Below, one piece after another: positions 2,126 to 6,141 of a stretch of DNA of 12,990 nucleotides. A program made the translations under genes and the position numbers. The stretch is from Bacteroidia bacterium (GTDB lineage Bacteria > Bacteroidota > Bacteroidia > Bacteroidales > P3): NCBI GenBank assembly GCA_025999775.1, contig BNXT01000021.1:1-12990 (forward strand), in the 5' to 3' direction. Under the pieces are notes generated by a model. It was not told the DNA's origin, searched no databases, and was given only the letters and a program-made list of their open reading frames with translations. Numbering within the stretch: the first letter of the stretch is position 1; each line of letters begins with the position of its first letter.

Positions 2126-3375
2126 ACAATGACTATCGTATAGCAAAAAACATGGACGTGTGGTTGATTCTCGTCTACGTCGTGTTGGTCATCTGCGGAT
2201 GGTTTAATATCTACGCAACGGTCAATACCGACCAACAGGCGAGTATATTCAACGTATCGCAAATATACGGTAAACAAATGATATTCATCATTATGGCGTT
2301 TGTCATAGCAGCTATCATTTTGTTAGTAGATATGCGGTTTTTCATGAATATGTCATATATCTTTTACGCCATTGTGCTTGTATTGCTTGTGGCAGTAACT
2401 TTGTTCGGTACCAAAATATCCGGTGCACGCTCGTGGTTCACCTTTGGCGGCTTTTCCATTCAACCATCGGAATTTGCAAAGTTTACCACGTGTTTGGCTT
2501 TGGCTAAGTATTTGAGTACCAGCGTAGTTGTGTTAAAAGATATACGTTCACAGTTAATAGCGATGTTCATAATGTTATTTCCGGCAACTCTCATTTTATT
2601 GCAACCGGATATGGGGTCGGCGATGATATTTGGATGCTTTATATTAGCGCTCTATCGAGAAGGTCTCCCTGCAATCTATTTGTGGGTCATCTTCTTTGCC
2701 GCGGTATTGTTCGTGGCGGCGCTATTGGTACAGTGGTATATTATCTTGATTGTGCTTGCCATCGCCGTTAGTTTATTGATATTCATCAATAAACGGACAT
2801 TTAAAAATATTGCCATGGCGCTGTTACTCTTTTTGGGAGCAGCCGCATACACCTACTCGGCAGATTATGCGTTTCAAAAGTTACAAACACATCAACAAGA
2901 CCGTATAAAAATCTTATTTGCACAAGAAATAGATACGCAAGGCGTGGGCTATAATGTGAGTCAGTCTAAAATTGCCATTGGATCCGGTGGCTGGACGGGT
3001 AAAGGATTTATGCAAGGTACGCAGACGAAATACAATTTTGTGCCGGAGCAAAGTACGGATTTTATTTTTTGTACCATCGGAGAAGAATGGGGTTTTGTCG
3101 GATCGGTTCTACTATTGGTACTGTTTTTTATTCTGATACAACGAATCGTAGCTTTGGCTGAGCAGTCGCGTAATAAATTTTCTCGCATCTATGGTTACGG
3201 CTTGGCATCGTTGTTGTTTTTTCAAGTGTTTATTAACGTTGGCATGACTATCGGTTTATTGCCCGTAATTGGTATTCCGTTGCCTTTCTTTAGTTATGGC
3301 GGTTCTTCGTTATGGACATATACCATCATGCTCTTTGTGTTTATCAAGCAAAGCGCCTCTAAGAGTATGTTTTAG
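2122..3375 (+). CDS. rodA: RodA, SEDS-family peptidoglycan glycosyltransferase
   Basis: This 417-aa polytopic inner-membrane protein polymerises lipid II into glycan strands for cell elongation, partnered with PBP2 encoded just upstream. SEDS family signatures are in order: SGARSWF and QPSEFAK (about 100-120), LLQPDMGSA with D163, the loop FVPEQSTDFIF containing D313 (matching by eye the essential Asp of RodA in the large periplasmic loop), and the C-terminal GIPLPFFSYGGSS block (about 384-396). About ten hydrophobic segments are visible. A stretch of consecutive hydrophobic segments at about 183-245 separates the two conserved halves. The ATG at 2122 overlaps the mrdA stop. The TAG at 3373-3375 overlaps the stop of the convergent murD. 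FtsW is the alternative within the family, but pairing with mrdA favours RodA. Confidence 0.95.
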   Translation: MNNDYRIAKNMDVWLILVYVVLVICGWFNIYATVNTDQQASIFNVSQIYGKQMIFIIMAFVIAAIILLVDMRFFMNMSYIFYAIVLVLLVAVTLFGTKISGARSWFTFGGFSIQPSEFAKFTTCLALAKYLSTSVVVLKDIRSQLIAMFIMLFPATLILLQPDMGSAMIFGCFILALYREGLPAIYLWVIFFAAVLFVAALLVQWYIILIVLAIAVSLLIFINKRTFKNIAMALLLFLGAAAYTYSADYAFQKLQTHQQDRIKILFAQEIDTQGVGYNVSQSKIAIGSGGWTGKGFMQGTQTKYNFVPEQSTDFIFCTIGEEWGFVGSVLLLVLFFILIQRIVALAEQSRNKFSRIYGYGLASLLFFQVFINVGMTIGLLPVIGIPLPFFSYGGSSLWTYTIMLFVFIKQSASKSMF

Positions 3376-4748
3376 CGTTGATTGCCTTTCGACTGTACAA
3401 GTTCAATAAAGGTTTGTCCGCGGTGCTCAAAATTTTTAAAACTATCGTAGCTGGCGGCAGCCGGAGACAATAAGCAAGCATGACCGGCAGTGGTAACATG
3501 ATAGGCTATATCAACAACTTGTGTGTAATCCGTAGCATCAAAAAACTGCACGAAATCATTTTGTATCTGCGGATTGTTAATAATCTCGTCAATCCACAAA
3601 TTACGGATGCGTTTGCCGGATTCGCCAACAAAAATAATGTTTTCAATGGGATTCATAATCAGAAAATCAATCAAAGAGGTGTAGTCAATACCTCTGTCAA
3701 ATCCCCCAAGAATGAGTGTTTGTACGGTTTTTATGCTGCGTAATGCGGCGATGGTCGCTTCCGGTATTGTGGAAATGGAATCGTTGTAGAATTGAATACC
3801 GGCATAGTCGCCGATGTACTGCATACGATGGGGAAGCGGTTCAAAATCTGCTATAGCCGAGAACATTGTAGGCTGGTCAACGTTAAGAACATCGCACACG
3901 CCCATGGACATCATGATGTTTATGAGATTGTGCGTACCTTGTAAAAGGCGTTCAGAGGTACAATCGTAGTACGCCTTGCCATCGCGATAAATCCAATCAT
4001 TGTGCAAAGAATAGCCGCTTTCTAAACGCTGCGAAATACTTACAGGCACACGATGACGTTGTAGCTGGGCGCTGTTCCATAAGCCCTGTAATAGCGGTTG
4101 GTCAACATTCATAACTAAATAATCATTTTCGTTCTGAAAGCGCGTGATGTTCCACTTAGCCTGTTGATAAGCGCCATACGAGGTATAATGGTCAAGATGT
4201 TCTTGAAAGATATTGAGCAGTACCGCAATGTGTGGCGCATGATGTACAAATTCTAATTGATGCGATGAGAGTTCAAAAACAATTTTGGTATCCTTGTTTA
4301 TTTGGTCATAGAAATCGAAAGGCGGCAAACCGATATTACCCACCAAAAGCACGTTGTCGCTCTGTTTTTTGAGAATATGATAAATAAGCGAAGATGTTGT
4401 ACTTTTCCCTTTGGTACCTGTAATTCCGATGGTTTGTGACCCAAATTCAGCCAAAAATAAATCCGCTTGTGAAGTGATACGCGGGTCTTTGAGTAAGAGC
4501 GGATGATGAGCTAACGAAATACCGGGTGTTTTGATAATCCTATCATAAGGTTCTAACGCTTGGAGATAGTTATCGCCAAGATGAAACTGTAACAAGTCAT
4601 CATTGAGTACGGCGGGGTCATCACGCAGAGCCGTGTTTTGGTCGGCAATAGTAATGTGCATTTGTGGATAACGCTTGCGTAGATGTCGGTAGGTCGAACG
4701 CCCTTCTCTCCCGAAACCTAAGATGAGAACATGTTTACAATTATTCAT
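3372..4748 (-). CDS. murD: UDP-N-acetylmuramoyl-L-alanine--glutamate ligase (MurD; probably the L-glutamate-adding MurD2 type)
   Basis: This 458-aa cytoplasmic Mur ligase adds glutamate to UDP-MurNAc-L-Ala using ATP. It shows an N-terminal nucleotide-sugar-binding fold (ILGFGREGRS, 9-18), the ATP loop GTKGKSTT (111-118), ELSSHQLE (159-166), QEHLDHY (182-188), the lysine expected to be carbamylated (K198), PHRMQYIG (306-313), ILGGFDRG (346-353) and a C-terminal SPAAASYDSFKNFEHRG block. Two positions differ from E. coli MurD by eye alignment: Lys319 (DSKATN) is I325 in DSISTIPE, and Lys348 is R352; the Ser415 and Phe422 equivalents, S433 and F440, are kept. The upstream murL overlaps it by 8 bp. 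Substituted pocket plus murL suggests that L-Glu, not D-Glu, is the substrate, as in Xanthomonas MurD2; this is inferred. An ordinary D-Glu-adding MurD is the alternative. Confidence 0.92.
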   Translation of the reverse strand: MNNCKHVLILGFGREGRSTYRHLRKRYPQMHITIADQNTALRDDPAVLNDDLLQFHLGDNYLQALEPYDRIIKTPGISLAHHPLLLKDPRITSQADLFLAEFGSQTIGITGTKGKSTTSSLIYHILKKQSDNVLLVGNIGLPPFDFYDQINKDTKIVFELSSHQLEFVHHAPHIAVLLNIFQEHLDHYTSYGAYQQAKWNITRFQNENDYLVMNVDQPLLQGLWNSAQLQRHRVPVSISQRLESGYSLHNDWIYRDGKAYYDCTSERLLQGTHNLINIMMSMGVCDVLNVDQPTMFSAIADFEPLPHRMQYIGDYAGIQFYNDSISTIPEATIAALRSIKTVQTLILGGFDRGIDYTSLIDFLIMNPIENIIFVGESGKRIRNLWIDEIINNPQIQNDFVQFFDATDYTQVVDIAYHVTTAGHACLLSPAAASYDSFKNFEHRGQTFIELVQSKGNQR

Positions 4749-6090
4749 GGTGATGGTAGTTTAGAAATTGAGAAGATAAACAGTGATGCTCCGAAAACTC
4801 GGTTGTTAAGTCAATAGGGGAGAGCGTGTATAGCGGTTTTGTCTTGAAGTATTGAACCAAGCAACTATCGTTGTCGTTGAACCGTTGAATATAGAGGTTC
4901 AGCGCATTGCAGACTTCATTGACCGTTCCCACACATTCAAAGGGTTTAACCGCACGAAGACCGGTCAACTGCTCAAATTCGGGTTGTAAGCTCGAATTAT
5001 TCAAGAGATTTTCACCAAAGATAGCCTGCAATGAACGTGGCGGTATGAAAGGCGATAAAATGATGTAGGCAAACAAGCATTTGGCACAGTGACAGCACCA
5101 CATATCGTCCTTAGAACCAACATTGCAACTACGGAAAACATCGTGATAGGCAGAAAATGAAGCAAAATACTTGGCTATAGTAAGCTCGTTTAATGGACGT
5201 AAAAAACTGAAATAATCAATGTCTTCATTGATGTAGGTATGTACATAGTTGCGAAAATCAATTTCAAATTCTACCGATTTGGAATATTGGTGATTGACTC
5301 CGGTAACAGGGTCGGTAGCTTCGTTGGCGCTGGATTCATTGGACAAGGCGATGTGTTTTTTACCTGTTATTGCAGCACAAAGCAGGGTTACAAAGGCGAG
5401 TAGGGCAGAAAACGGCGTATGACCGTTCAGCAACCCTTGGGCATTGAGAGCTAACAAACGCTTATCAAGAGTACGCCGAACCTCAATGACTTCTGTTTCC
5501 TTAAATCCCGCTATTTTAGCACAGTTAAGACTTGCTCCACGCGGATTGACAATCATCGGCAAGGGTTTTAACGCTACATCACGCAGCAGTTCTAAGGTTA
5601 CTACCGAATCTTTACCCCCGCCAACAGGGATGATGACCTCGTCGGATAGCGACAATACGAATTTTGAAAAAGGTTTACCATCCGCACGGATGTTCATAAA
5701 CTCATCCACCGTAGTCTTAATGTTGTTGGTATAAAAAAATTCACCTAACCCATTGAAATAGAGTTTTTTCCACCATTGGATAGCGGCTTTATCTAAGGCA
5801 ATAGGTTTGATGTGGATATTTGGAGAACAGGTGGACTTCCAATAACTTATGAGTTCAATCAGTCCGATATGGGCGACAAGCGTGTCCATTTGCTCGGTAC
5901 TCAAACGGTCAAACGCATAAAACGGACGTTGAGGAAGAAAAAGCGTAGGCTCAAAGTGAGTCAACGTCGGAATGTGAAAATCAAAACTAATATGCAAGCC
6001 ATCAGATTGAATATCCCATTGATAGGCTTCAAAAATGAAGTCAGGATAGTCGGCACGGAGCGTTTTAAAGGTGTTAGAGTGGATATTCAT
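4741..6090 (-). CDS. murL: UDP-N-acetylmuramoyl-L-alanyl-L-glutamate epimerase (MurL-like, PP-loop ATPase fold)
   Basis: This 449-aa soluble protein is most likely MurL, which inverts the terminal L-Glu of UDP-MurNAc-L-Ala-L-Glu to D-Glu. The Xanthomonas enzyme uses ATP and releases AMP and pyrophosphate, so an acyl-adenylate step is expected. The sequence shows a PP-loop-type motif PVGGGKDS (155-162), the kind that cleaves ATP to AMP and PPi, a conserved-looking NESSANE segment (251-257), and a cysteine cluster WCCHCAKC (331-338) with C322 nearby. The ATG at 6090 is preferred: the frame extends upstream only to a TTG at 6141, adding 17 residues that do not look conserved. Its TAA lies inside the murD start, so the two are translationally coupled; murD2-murL adjacency is also known from Xanthomonas. 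Other PP-loop enzymes (QueC, asparagine synthase, tRNA thiolases) are alternatives but fit length and context less well. Confidence 0.82.
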   Translation of the reverse strand: MNIHSNTFKTLRADYPDFIFEAYQWDIQSDGLHISFDFHIPTLTHFEPTLFLPQRPFYAFDRLSTEQMDTLVAHIGLIELISYWKSTCSPNIHIKPIALDKAAIQWWKKLYFNGLGEFFYTNNIKTTVDEFMNIRADGKPFSKFVLSLSDEVIIPVGGGKDSVVTLELLRDVALKPLPMIVNPRGASLNCAKIAGFKETEVIEVRRTLDKRLLALNAQGLLNGHTPFSALLAFVTLLCAAITGKKHIALSNESSANEATDPVTGVNHQYSKSVEFEIDFRNYVHTYINEDIDYFSFLRPLNELTIAKYFASFSAYHDVFRSCNVGSKDDMWCCHCAKCLFAYIILSPFIPPRSLQAIFGENLLNNSSLQPEFEQLTGLRAVKPFECVGTVNEVCNALNLYIQRFNDNDSCLVQYFKTKPLYTLSPIDLTTEFSEHHCLSSQFLNYHHHE

Positions 6091-6110: not shown

Positions 6111-6141
6111 CGAAGTTACGAAAAAATTTATTAACAATCAA
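6111..6141 (-). promoter_or_regulatory. Possible murL promoter, Bacteroidota type
   Basis: On the minus strand, TAACTTCG (6118 to 6111) matches the Bacteroidota -7 consensus TAnnTTTG at all but one fixed position. TTG triplets at 6141-6139 and 6137-6135 lie 20 and 16 bases upstream, near the expected -33 position. Transcription would begin about 10-15 bases before the murL ATG at 6090. The match is imperfect and the DNA is AT-rich, so this is tentative; a promoter is nevertheless needed here because murL is the first gene of its unit. Confidence 0.3.

Follow-up and report, generated by a model that had tools for sequence, protein, structure and literature searches.

A murL-murD2-type gene pair in Bacteroidales suggests a racemase-free route to peptidoglycan D-glutamate

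Introduction

How does a bacterium whose relatives carry no recognizable glutamate racemase obtain the D-Glu of its peptidoglycan? The question is raised by a murL gene and a murD gene that lie together on the minus strand of a contig from the Bacteroidales. In Xanthomonas, the MurD2-MurL pathway corresponds to XOO_1320/XOO_1319 (PMC8788868), and the consulted portions of two reviews place MurL in Gamma- and Alphaproteobacteria and in rare actinobacteria, with low-similarity homologues listed for a fungus, cyanobacteria and an amoeba (PMC8788868, PMC5808125). Among the literature matches listed, read as titles and abstract openings, none describes the MurL route in Bacteroidota or links MurL with QueC, and none mentions a MurL-MurD fusion or a MurD C-terminal domain that stands alone.

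A sequence-only reading of the window (the whole stretch of 12,990 nucleotides that was analysed) had proposed that the pair forms an L-Glu/MurL route to D-Glu. We conclude, with a probability of about 0.87, that the two genes form a MurD2-MurL system and provide D-Glu for peptidoglycan with no need of a glutamate racemase. This conclusion is based on the match of MurL to its family model, the likeness to the Xanthomonas proteins, three residues of MurD, the mutual exclusion of MurL and the racemase MurI, the occurrence of gene fusions, and a predicted QatC/QueC-like fold. In the proposed mechanism, MurD2 would attach L-Glu, and the attached glutamate would then be flipped in place to D-Glu by MurL, a QueC-like ATP pyrophosphatase that would adenylate its alpha-carboxylate.

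Results and discussion

The gene pair and its surroundings

Both ORFs, and the 8-bp overlap between them, are present as the sequence-only reading had described (Table 1). An in-frame TTG at 6141 is an alternative start for murL, and would lengthen the protein to 466 aa. Its neighbours include mrdA (PBP2) and rodA, which are on the plus strand and convergent with murD; the stops of rodA and murD overlap by 4 bp (3372-3375). Profile searches assign the other neighbours to a B12-dependent ribonucleotide reductase, an Mpl/MurC-like ligase, a glycosyltransferase and an LptF/LptG permease.

The window is one entire contig of a genome that is 61.8% complete, so the lack of murI in this genome is by itself weak evidence. 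Its earlier assignment to Bacteroidota agrees with the labels of the contigs encoding the nearest MurLs: of the 80 named contigs kept, one is labelled only 'uncultured bacterium', and the others bear the names Bacteroidales or Bacteroidetes/Bacteroidota/Bacteroidia or that of a genus or family therein (for example Candidatus Colimorpha and Lentimicrobiaceae).

Table 1. Coordinates of the features discussed (in the window, unless a locus is named)
Feature	Position	Strand	Remarks
murL (MurL)	4741-6090	minus	449 aa; ATG at 6090, stop ends 4741
murD2-type ligase (murD)	3372-4748	minus	458 aa; ATG at 4748, stop ends 3372
murL stop/murD start overlap, ATGAATAA	4741-4748	minus	8 bp; read from sequence
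ATP loop GGGKDS, MurL residues 157-162	5605-5622	minus	invariant in 60 sequences
Four-cysteine motif C322-x9-C332-x2-C335-x2-C338 of MurL	5077-5127	minus	all four invariant in 60 sequences
MurD Glu183	4200-4202	minus	aligned with E. coli Asp182, X. oryzae MurD2 Glu197
MurD Ile325	3774-3776	minus	aligned with E. coli Lys319
MurD Arg352	3693-3695	minus	aligned with E. coli Lys348, X. oryzae MurD2 Arg358
Short dcw murD (MurDc), example	L143:4604-5143		one of 61 short copies

MurL and its predicted fold

The only NCBIfam match of the 449-aa protein is the MurL model NF041275 (261.5 bits, E 1.1e-77, residues 22-424), whose cut-off of 700 bits was set for Xanthomonadales. A homologue search with MurL returned at least 8000 relatives, so the ORF is not a chance one. 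At E 0.001 the protein has no Pfam-A match, PF06508 (the QueC family) included; the labels PF26298 and PF26299 appear as precomputed domains among the MurL search results, and a local Pfam search does not give them.

A search for a solved structure of a MurL relative found none, and the following comparison uses a predicted model. MurL is predicted to have a QueC/QatC fold with an ATP loop and a four-cysteine motif. Three features of QueC-like proteins are represented: the fold, a loop of the SGGxDS type found in QueC (PMC13329287), and a counterpart of the QueC zinc motif C(x)8CxxCxxC (PMC13329287). There are also differences from the QueC family (QueC, QatC and Cap9), as the first cysteine spacing is x9 in MurL but x8 in QueC, the profile PF06508 does not match, and the substrate and reaction of the family differ from those proposed for MurL. 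We do not file MurL as a member of PF06508, and propose that it works like one. The predicted fold, the ATP loop and the cysteines would fit adenylation of the glutamate alpha-carboxylate.

Specificity residues of MurD

On TIGR01087, which has a cut-off of 212 bits, the window MurD reaches 318 bits; this score and the NF041275 match agree with the earlier assignment of the pair as a MurL-like epimerase and a MurD. It has the Mur ligase domains in common with canonical MurDs, and counterparts of E157, H183 and K198 are kept in 59/59 MurDs. According to the consulted part of one review, X. oryzae MurD2 has Glu197 and Arg358 where E. coli has Asp182 and Lys348, and these two residues decide the use of L-Glu; E. 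coli MurD K319T accepts L-Glu (PMC8788868). The window MurD has the same Glu and Arg replacements (E183 and R352), and with Ile325 its pattern at the three chirality positions is E-I-R, in contrast to D-K-K in canonical MurD. An alignment places E, I and R at the same three positions of X. sacchari MurD2. The window MurD thus probably uses L-Glu.

These residues follow MurL across genomes. Overall, MurD2-type MurDs have E-I-R in 80/81 cases and D-I-R in one (G017), and all 64 canonical MurDs have D-K-K. A first set of 59 MurDs, from 57 of 61 genomes, comprised 40 E-I-R, one D-I-R and 18 D-K-K proteins. The 41 E-I-R or D-I-R proteins are all from MurL genomes, save the one in G019, a 78% complete genome in which MurL was not found; 16 of the 18 D-K-K proteins are from MurI genomes, and each of the other two is an additional MurD in a MurL genome. 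In a further set, all 40 MurL-side MurDs are E-I-R, and all 46 full-length canonical MurDs in MurL genomes are D-K-K.

Comparison with Xanthomonas

The window MurL is 34% identical to the annotated X. sacchari MurL over 366 residues (E 6e-59), and the identity of the two MurDs is about 31%. X. sacchari also has murL followed by murD, with an overlap of 20 bp versus 8 bp in the window, and the Xanthomonas proteins share with the window pair both the E-I-R residues and the invariant MurL cysteines. A further likeness is the absence of MurI, here from the window's relatives. The identities are low, however, and the host of the window is a member of Bacteroidota. The fusions and short murD genes described below come from a comparison that covered the window's relatives.

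MurL and MurI across genomes

A phylum-wide draw of 392 genomes gave a match to the racemase model TIGR00067 in 341, and a full MurL only in the window's genome; four further MurL matches (20-25 bits) cover short stretches of longer proteins. Since this draw held only five genomes of the window's order besides the window's own, both searches were repeated in 294 genomes of that order. In the window's family, the racemase domain PF01177 is found in 0/37 genomes and MurL in 35/37, and the two genomes without a MurL match are 78% and 85% complete. For other families of the order, 24 genomes were searched: PF01177 occurs in 17 and MurL in six, with none having both and one having neither. In the 294 genomes, the search found strong MurL matches in 95, strong MurI matches (TIGR00067) in 186, and both in none (Fisher p 2e-63, a calculation that ignores relatedness). 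Seven weak MurL matches (E 5e-10 or worse) were left out of the MurL count, and weak TIGR00067 matches (E 4e-21 to 1.5e-5) occur in 22/95 MurL genomes. The remaining 13/294 genomes have neither a strong MurL nor a strong MurI; one of these, G051 (98% complete), is also without a convincing MurD (best match 7.8e-28).

The sequence-only reading had suggested both a comparison with the Xanthomonas proteins and a search for murI, and had named, as one case against it, a MurD accepting only D-Glu alongside an intact murI; the comparison and the search came out in its favour, and an intact murI beside such a MurD was found in none of the 294 genomes. Four lines of evidence support its proposal of an L-Glu/MurL route: the protein families, the order of the genes, the residues that set specificity, and the lack of MurI in relatives. 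Its statement that the route was known mainly from Proteobacteria and some Actinobacteria agrees with the consulted parts of the reviews (PMC8788868, PMC5808125), and the known range is indeed extended by 95/294 genomes of an order, rather than by one odd chromosome. In Bacteroidales, the MurD2-MurL route would thereby replace MurI.

Adjacency and fusion of murL and murD

Of 86 MurL genomes from other families of the order, 69 have murD immediately after murL in the same orientation, one has the two genes fused, and nine have murD elsewhere; in seven, the profile used gave no murD match. Within the window's family, MurL and MurD share one frame of 885-1138 codons in 17/35 MurL genomes (loci L025, L027-L032, L034, L036, L041, L043 and L044, and genomes G010, G015, G030, G031 and G036). 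In the rest, the two genes are adjacent in six genomes (the window included), both at contig ends in one, and on different contigs in ten, and in G028 a full-length MurD was not found. In a quick-method tree of 38 MurL rows, three changes between fused and separate states are needed, and the starred branches force three. Part of the window's family thus has murL and murD2 as a fusion. When one fusion was used as a query, 118 of the 120 proteins listed carried PF26298, PF26299 and PF08245, and the database names of the listed relatives are D-glutamate ligase where named, save one hypothetical protein.

A shortened murD in the dcw cluster

Besides the MurL-associated gene, genomes can have a canonical murD in the dcw (division/cell-wall) cluster. 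Some MurL lineages would have kept this gene whole, whereas in many only the part for the C-terminal domain would have been left. A form reduced to the C-terminal ~180 residues (MurDc) is present in 29/61 relatives (27/37 of the family, plus G039 and G041) and in 32 of the 86 other MurL genomes, of which 49 have a full-length canonical MurD, two are ambiguous (G527 and G479, whose short murD is indistinguishable from a contig-end cut) and three have no match. Short and full-length canonical genes both occur within ten families. All 16 MurI relatives whose MurD was read have the full-length form, and the only short piece, of 111 aa in G042, was left out as a contig-end fragment. For the ten family members without a recognised MurDc, the stretch was fetched for G015 and G029 only, and none was recognised in it. 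In the 49 genomes mentioned (e.g. L213-L216), a full-length D-K-K MurD exists beside MurL-MurD2 without a strong MurI, perhaps for salvage of D-Glu.

The MurDc ORF starts shortly ahead of the GKHN element and ends at the usual C-terminus of MurD, with 174-182 aa in 28 complete copies; in the window's own genome, the end of contig C65 cuts the copy off at 169 aa (L002:2-508). The gene order is murE, mraY, MurDc in the window's genome and mraY, MurDc, ftsW, murG, murC in G005. In 55/61 short copies, an ORF of 250 aa or more lies upstream and ends no further than 103 nt from MurDc; in four it ends at 177-309 nt, and in the other two the stretch examined contains none. In both cases scanned by profile, this ORF is MraY. 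When a model of the G006 copy (pLDDT 81, first 16 residues <50) was compared with known structures, it matched the C-terminal domain of MurD, with a best E of 4e-14. A profile search also yields many 182-aa copies, mixed with pieces of ordinary MurD and named D-glutamate ligase, cyanophycin synthetase or hypothetical. In G019, an 814-codon frame (L159:5929-8370) has a MurC-like match at residues 366-701, so extra sequence is joined upstream of MurC.

We considered a special internal start for MurDc, at a Met that full-length canonical MurDs of MurL genomes have where the short form begins, and rejected it: the same Met is found in 12/13 MurI relatives with the motif. The residue is simply conserved, and available as a start to a gene that has been truncated. 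In a tree built by a quick method from the C-terminal domains of 111 MurDs, several rows are very long; it needs 11 changes between full and short forms, while well-supported branches force only three; the same-genus sister pairs G713/G569 and G715/G476 differ in state on starred branches. The gene was likely truncated more than once, the number of events being unsure.

Is MurDc simply a decaying pseudogene that persists by chance or through its place in the operon? Its catalytic residues do drift, as K319, K348 and S415 are all kept in 3/29 and 6/32 short copies versus 44/46 full-length proteins, and in four MurDc (G017, G019, G028 and G039) the profile match extends slightly upstream through stop codons. 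A tblastn search at E 0.01, covering as much as 1500 nt of upstream sequence where available, found no N-terminal MurD relic in 61/61. Against decay stand the uniform length of the complete copies, the D317 position, kept in 61/61, and dN/dS values of 0.009-0.147 in 17/21 same-genus pairs (0.26-0.47 in the other four), which are rough, as dS is >1 in 18/21 pairs, and were computed on MurDc alone. We consider a pseudogene unlikely; by these measures, MurDc appears to be under purifying selection while its active site decays. One tentative explanation, to which we give slightly less than even odds, is that the MurD C-terminal domain has a second, non-catalytic role in the division/cell-wall cluster, and that after takeover by MurD2-MurL, lineages repeatedly lost the first two domains of MurD and retained MurDc behind mraY, under purifying selection but with its catalytic residues relaxed. 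This idea is weakened by the stop codons upstream and by the saturation of dS.

Alternatives to a MurD2-MurL system

The conclusion that the window pair is a MurD2-MurL system has to accommodate several observations: MurL reaches 261 of the 700 bits of its model's cut-off, 22/95 MurL genomes have weak racemase-model matches, 49/86 keep a full-length canonical MurD, and 13/294 genomes have neither enzyme. Furthermore, the D-amino-acid aminotransferase model TIGR01121 has no match above cut-off in 61 genomes but below-cut-off matches in 59, so a transaminase could be a source of D-Glu; this is a weak test for absence, because the model passes its cut-off in only 1/14 control genomes. These fold-type relatives would suit a different scheme, in which the window MurD is an ordinary D-Glu ligase, MurL modifies something else, and the cell takes D-Glu from its surroundings or makes it with a broad transaminase or a racemase that escaped recognition. 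The solved folds nearest to MurL, its QueC/QatC cousins, which act on nucleobase or protein substrates, could be read in the same way. However, the chirality residues track MurL in the MurDs read, MurL and MurI are mutually exclusive, and MurL and its MurD are neighbours or fused, so we regard an ordinary D-Glu ligase as quite improbable.

That the patterns are an artefact of incomplete or mixed metagenome assemblies is barely credible: most genomes are in many contigs, the window's own is incomplete and two short murD genes may be contig-end cuts, but 270/294 genomes are >=90% complete and <=5% contaminated, 92 of them with a MurL match, and an upstream ORF adjoins the short murD genes.

If the MurD2-MurL reading is correct, the MurL route would change from a feature of the few genera named in reviews to a common source of cell-wall D-Glu in Bacteroidales, and the MurL-MurD fusions named D-glutamate ligase in databases would probably be L-Glu ligase-epimerases. 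MurL, described as being without known domains, would gain a predicted fold and a testable mechanism, in which both adenylation and epimerisation would be its work. With MurDc, nature would have supplied a series of domain deletions in which a second function of MurD, if there is one, could be tested. MurL-like genes, annotated as hypothetical, are also found on Pseudonocardia plasmids (e.g. L334:3471-4871, with no murD annotated beside it).
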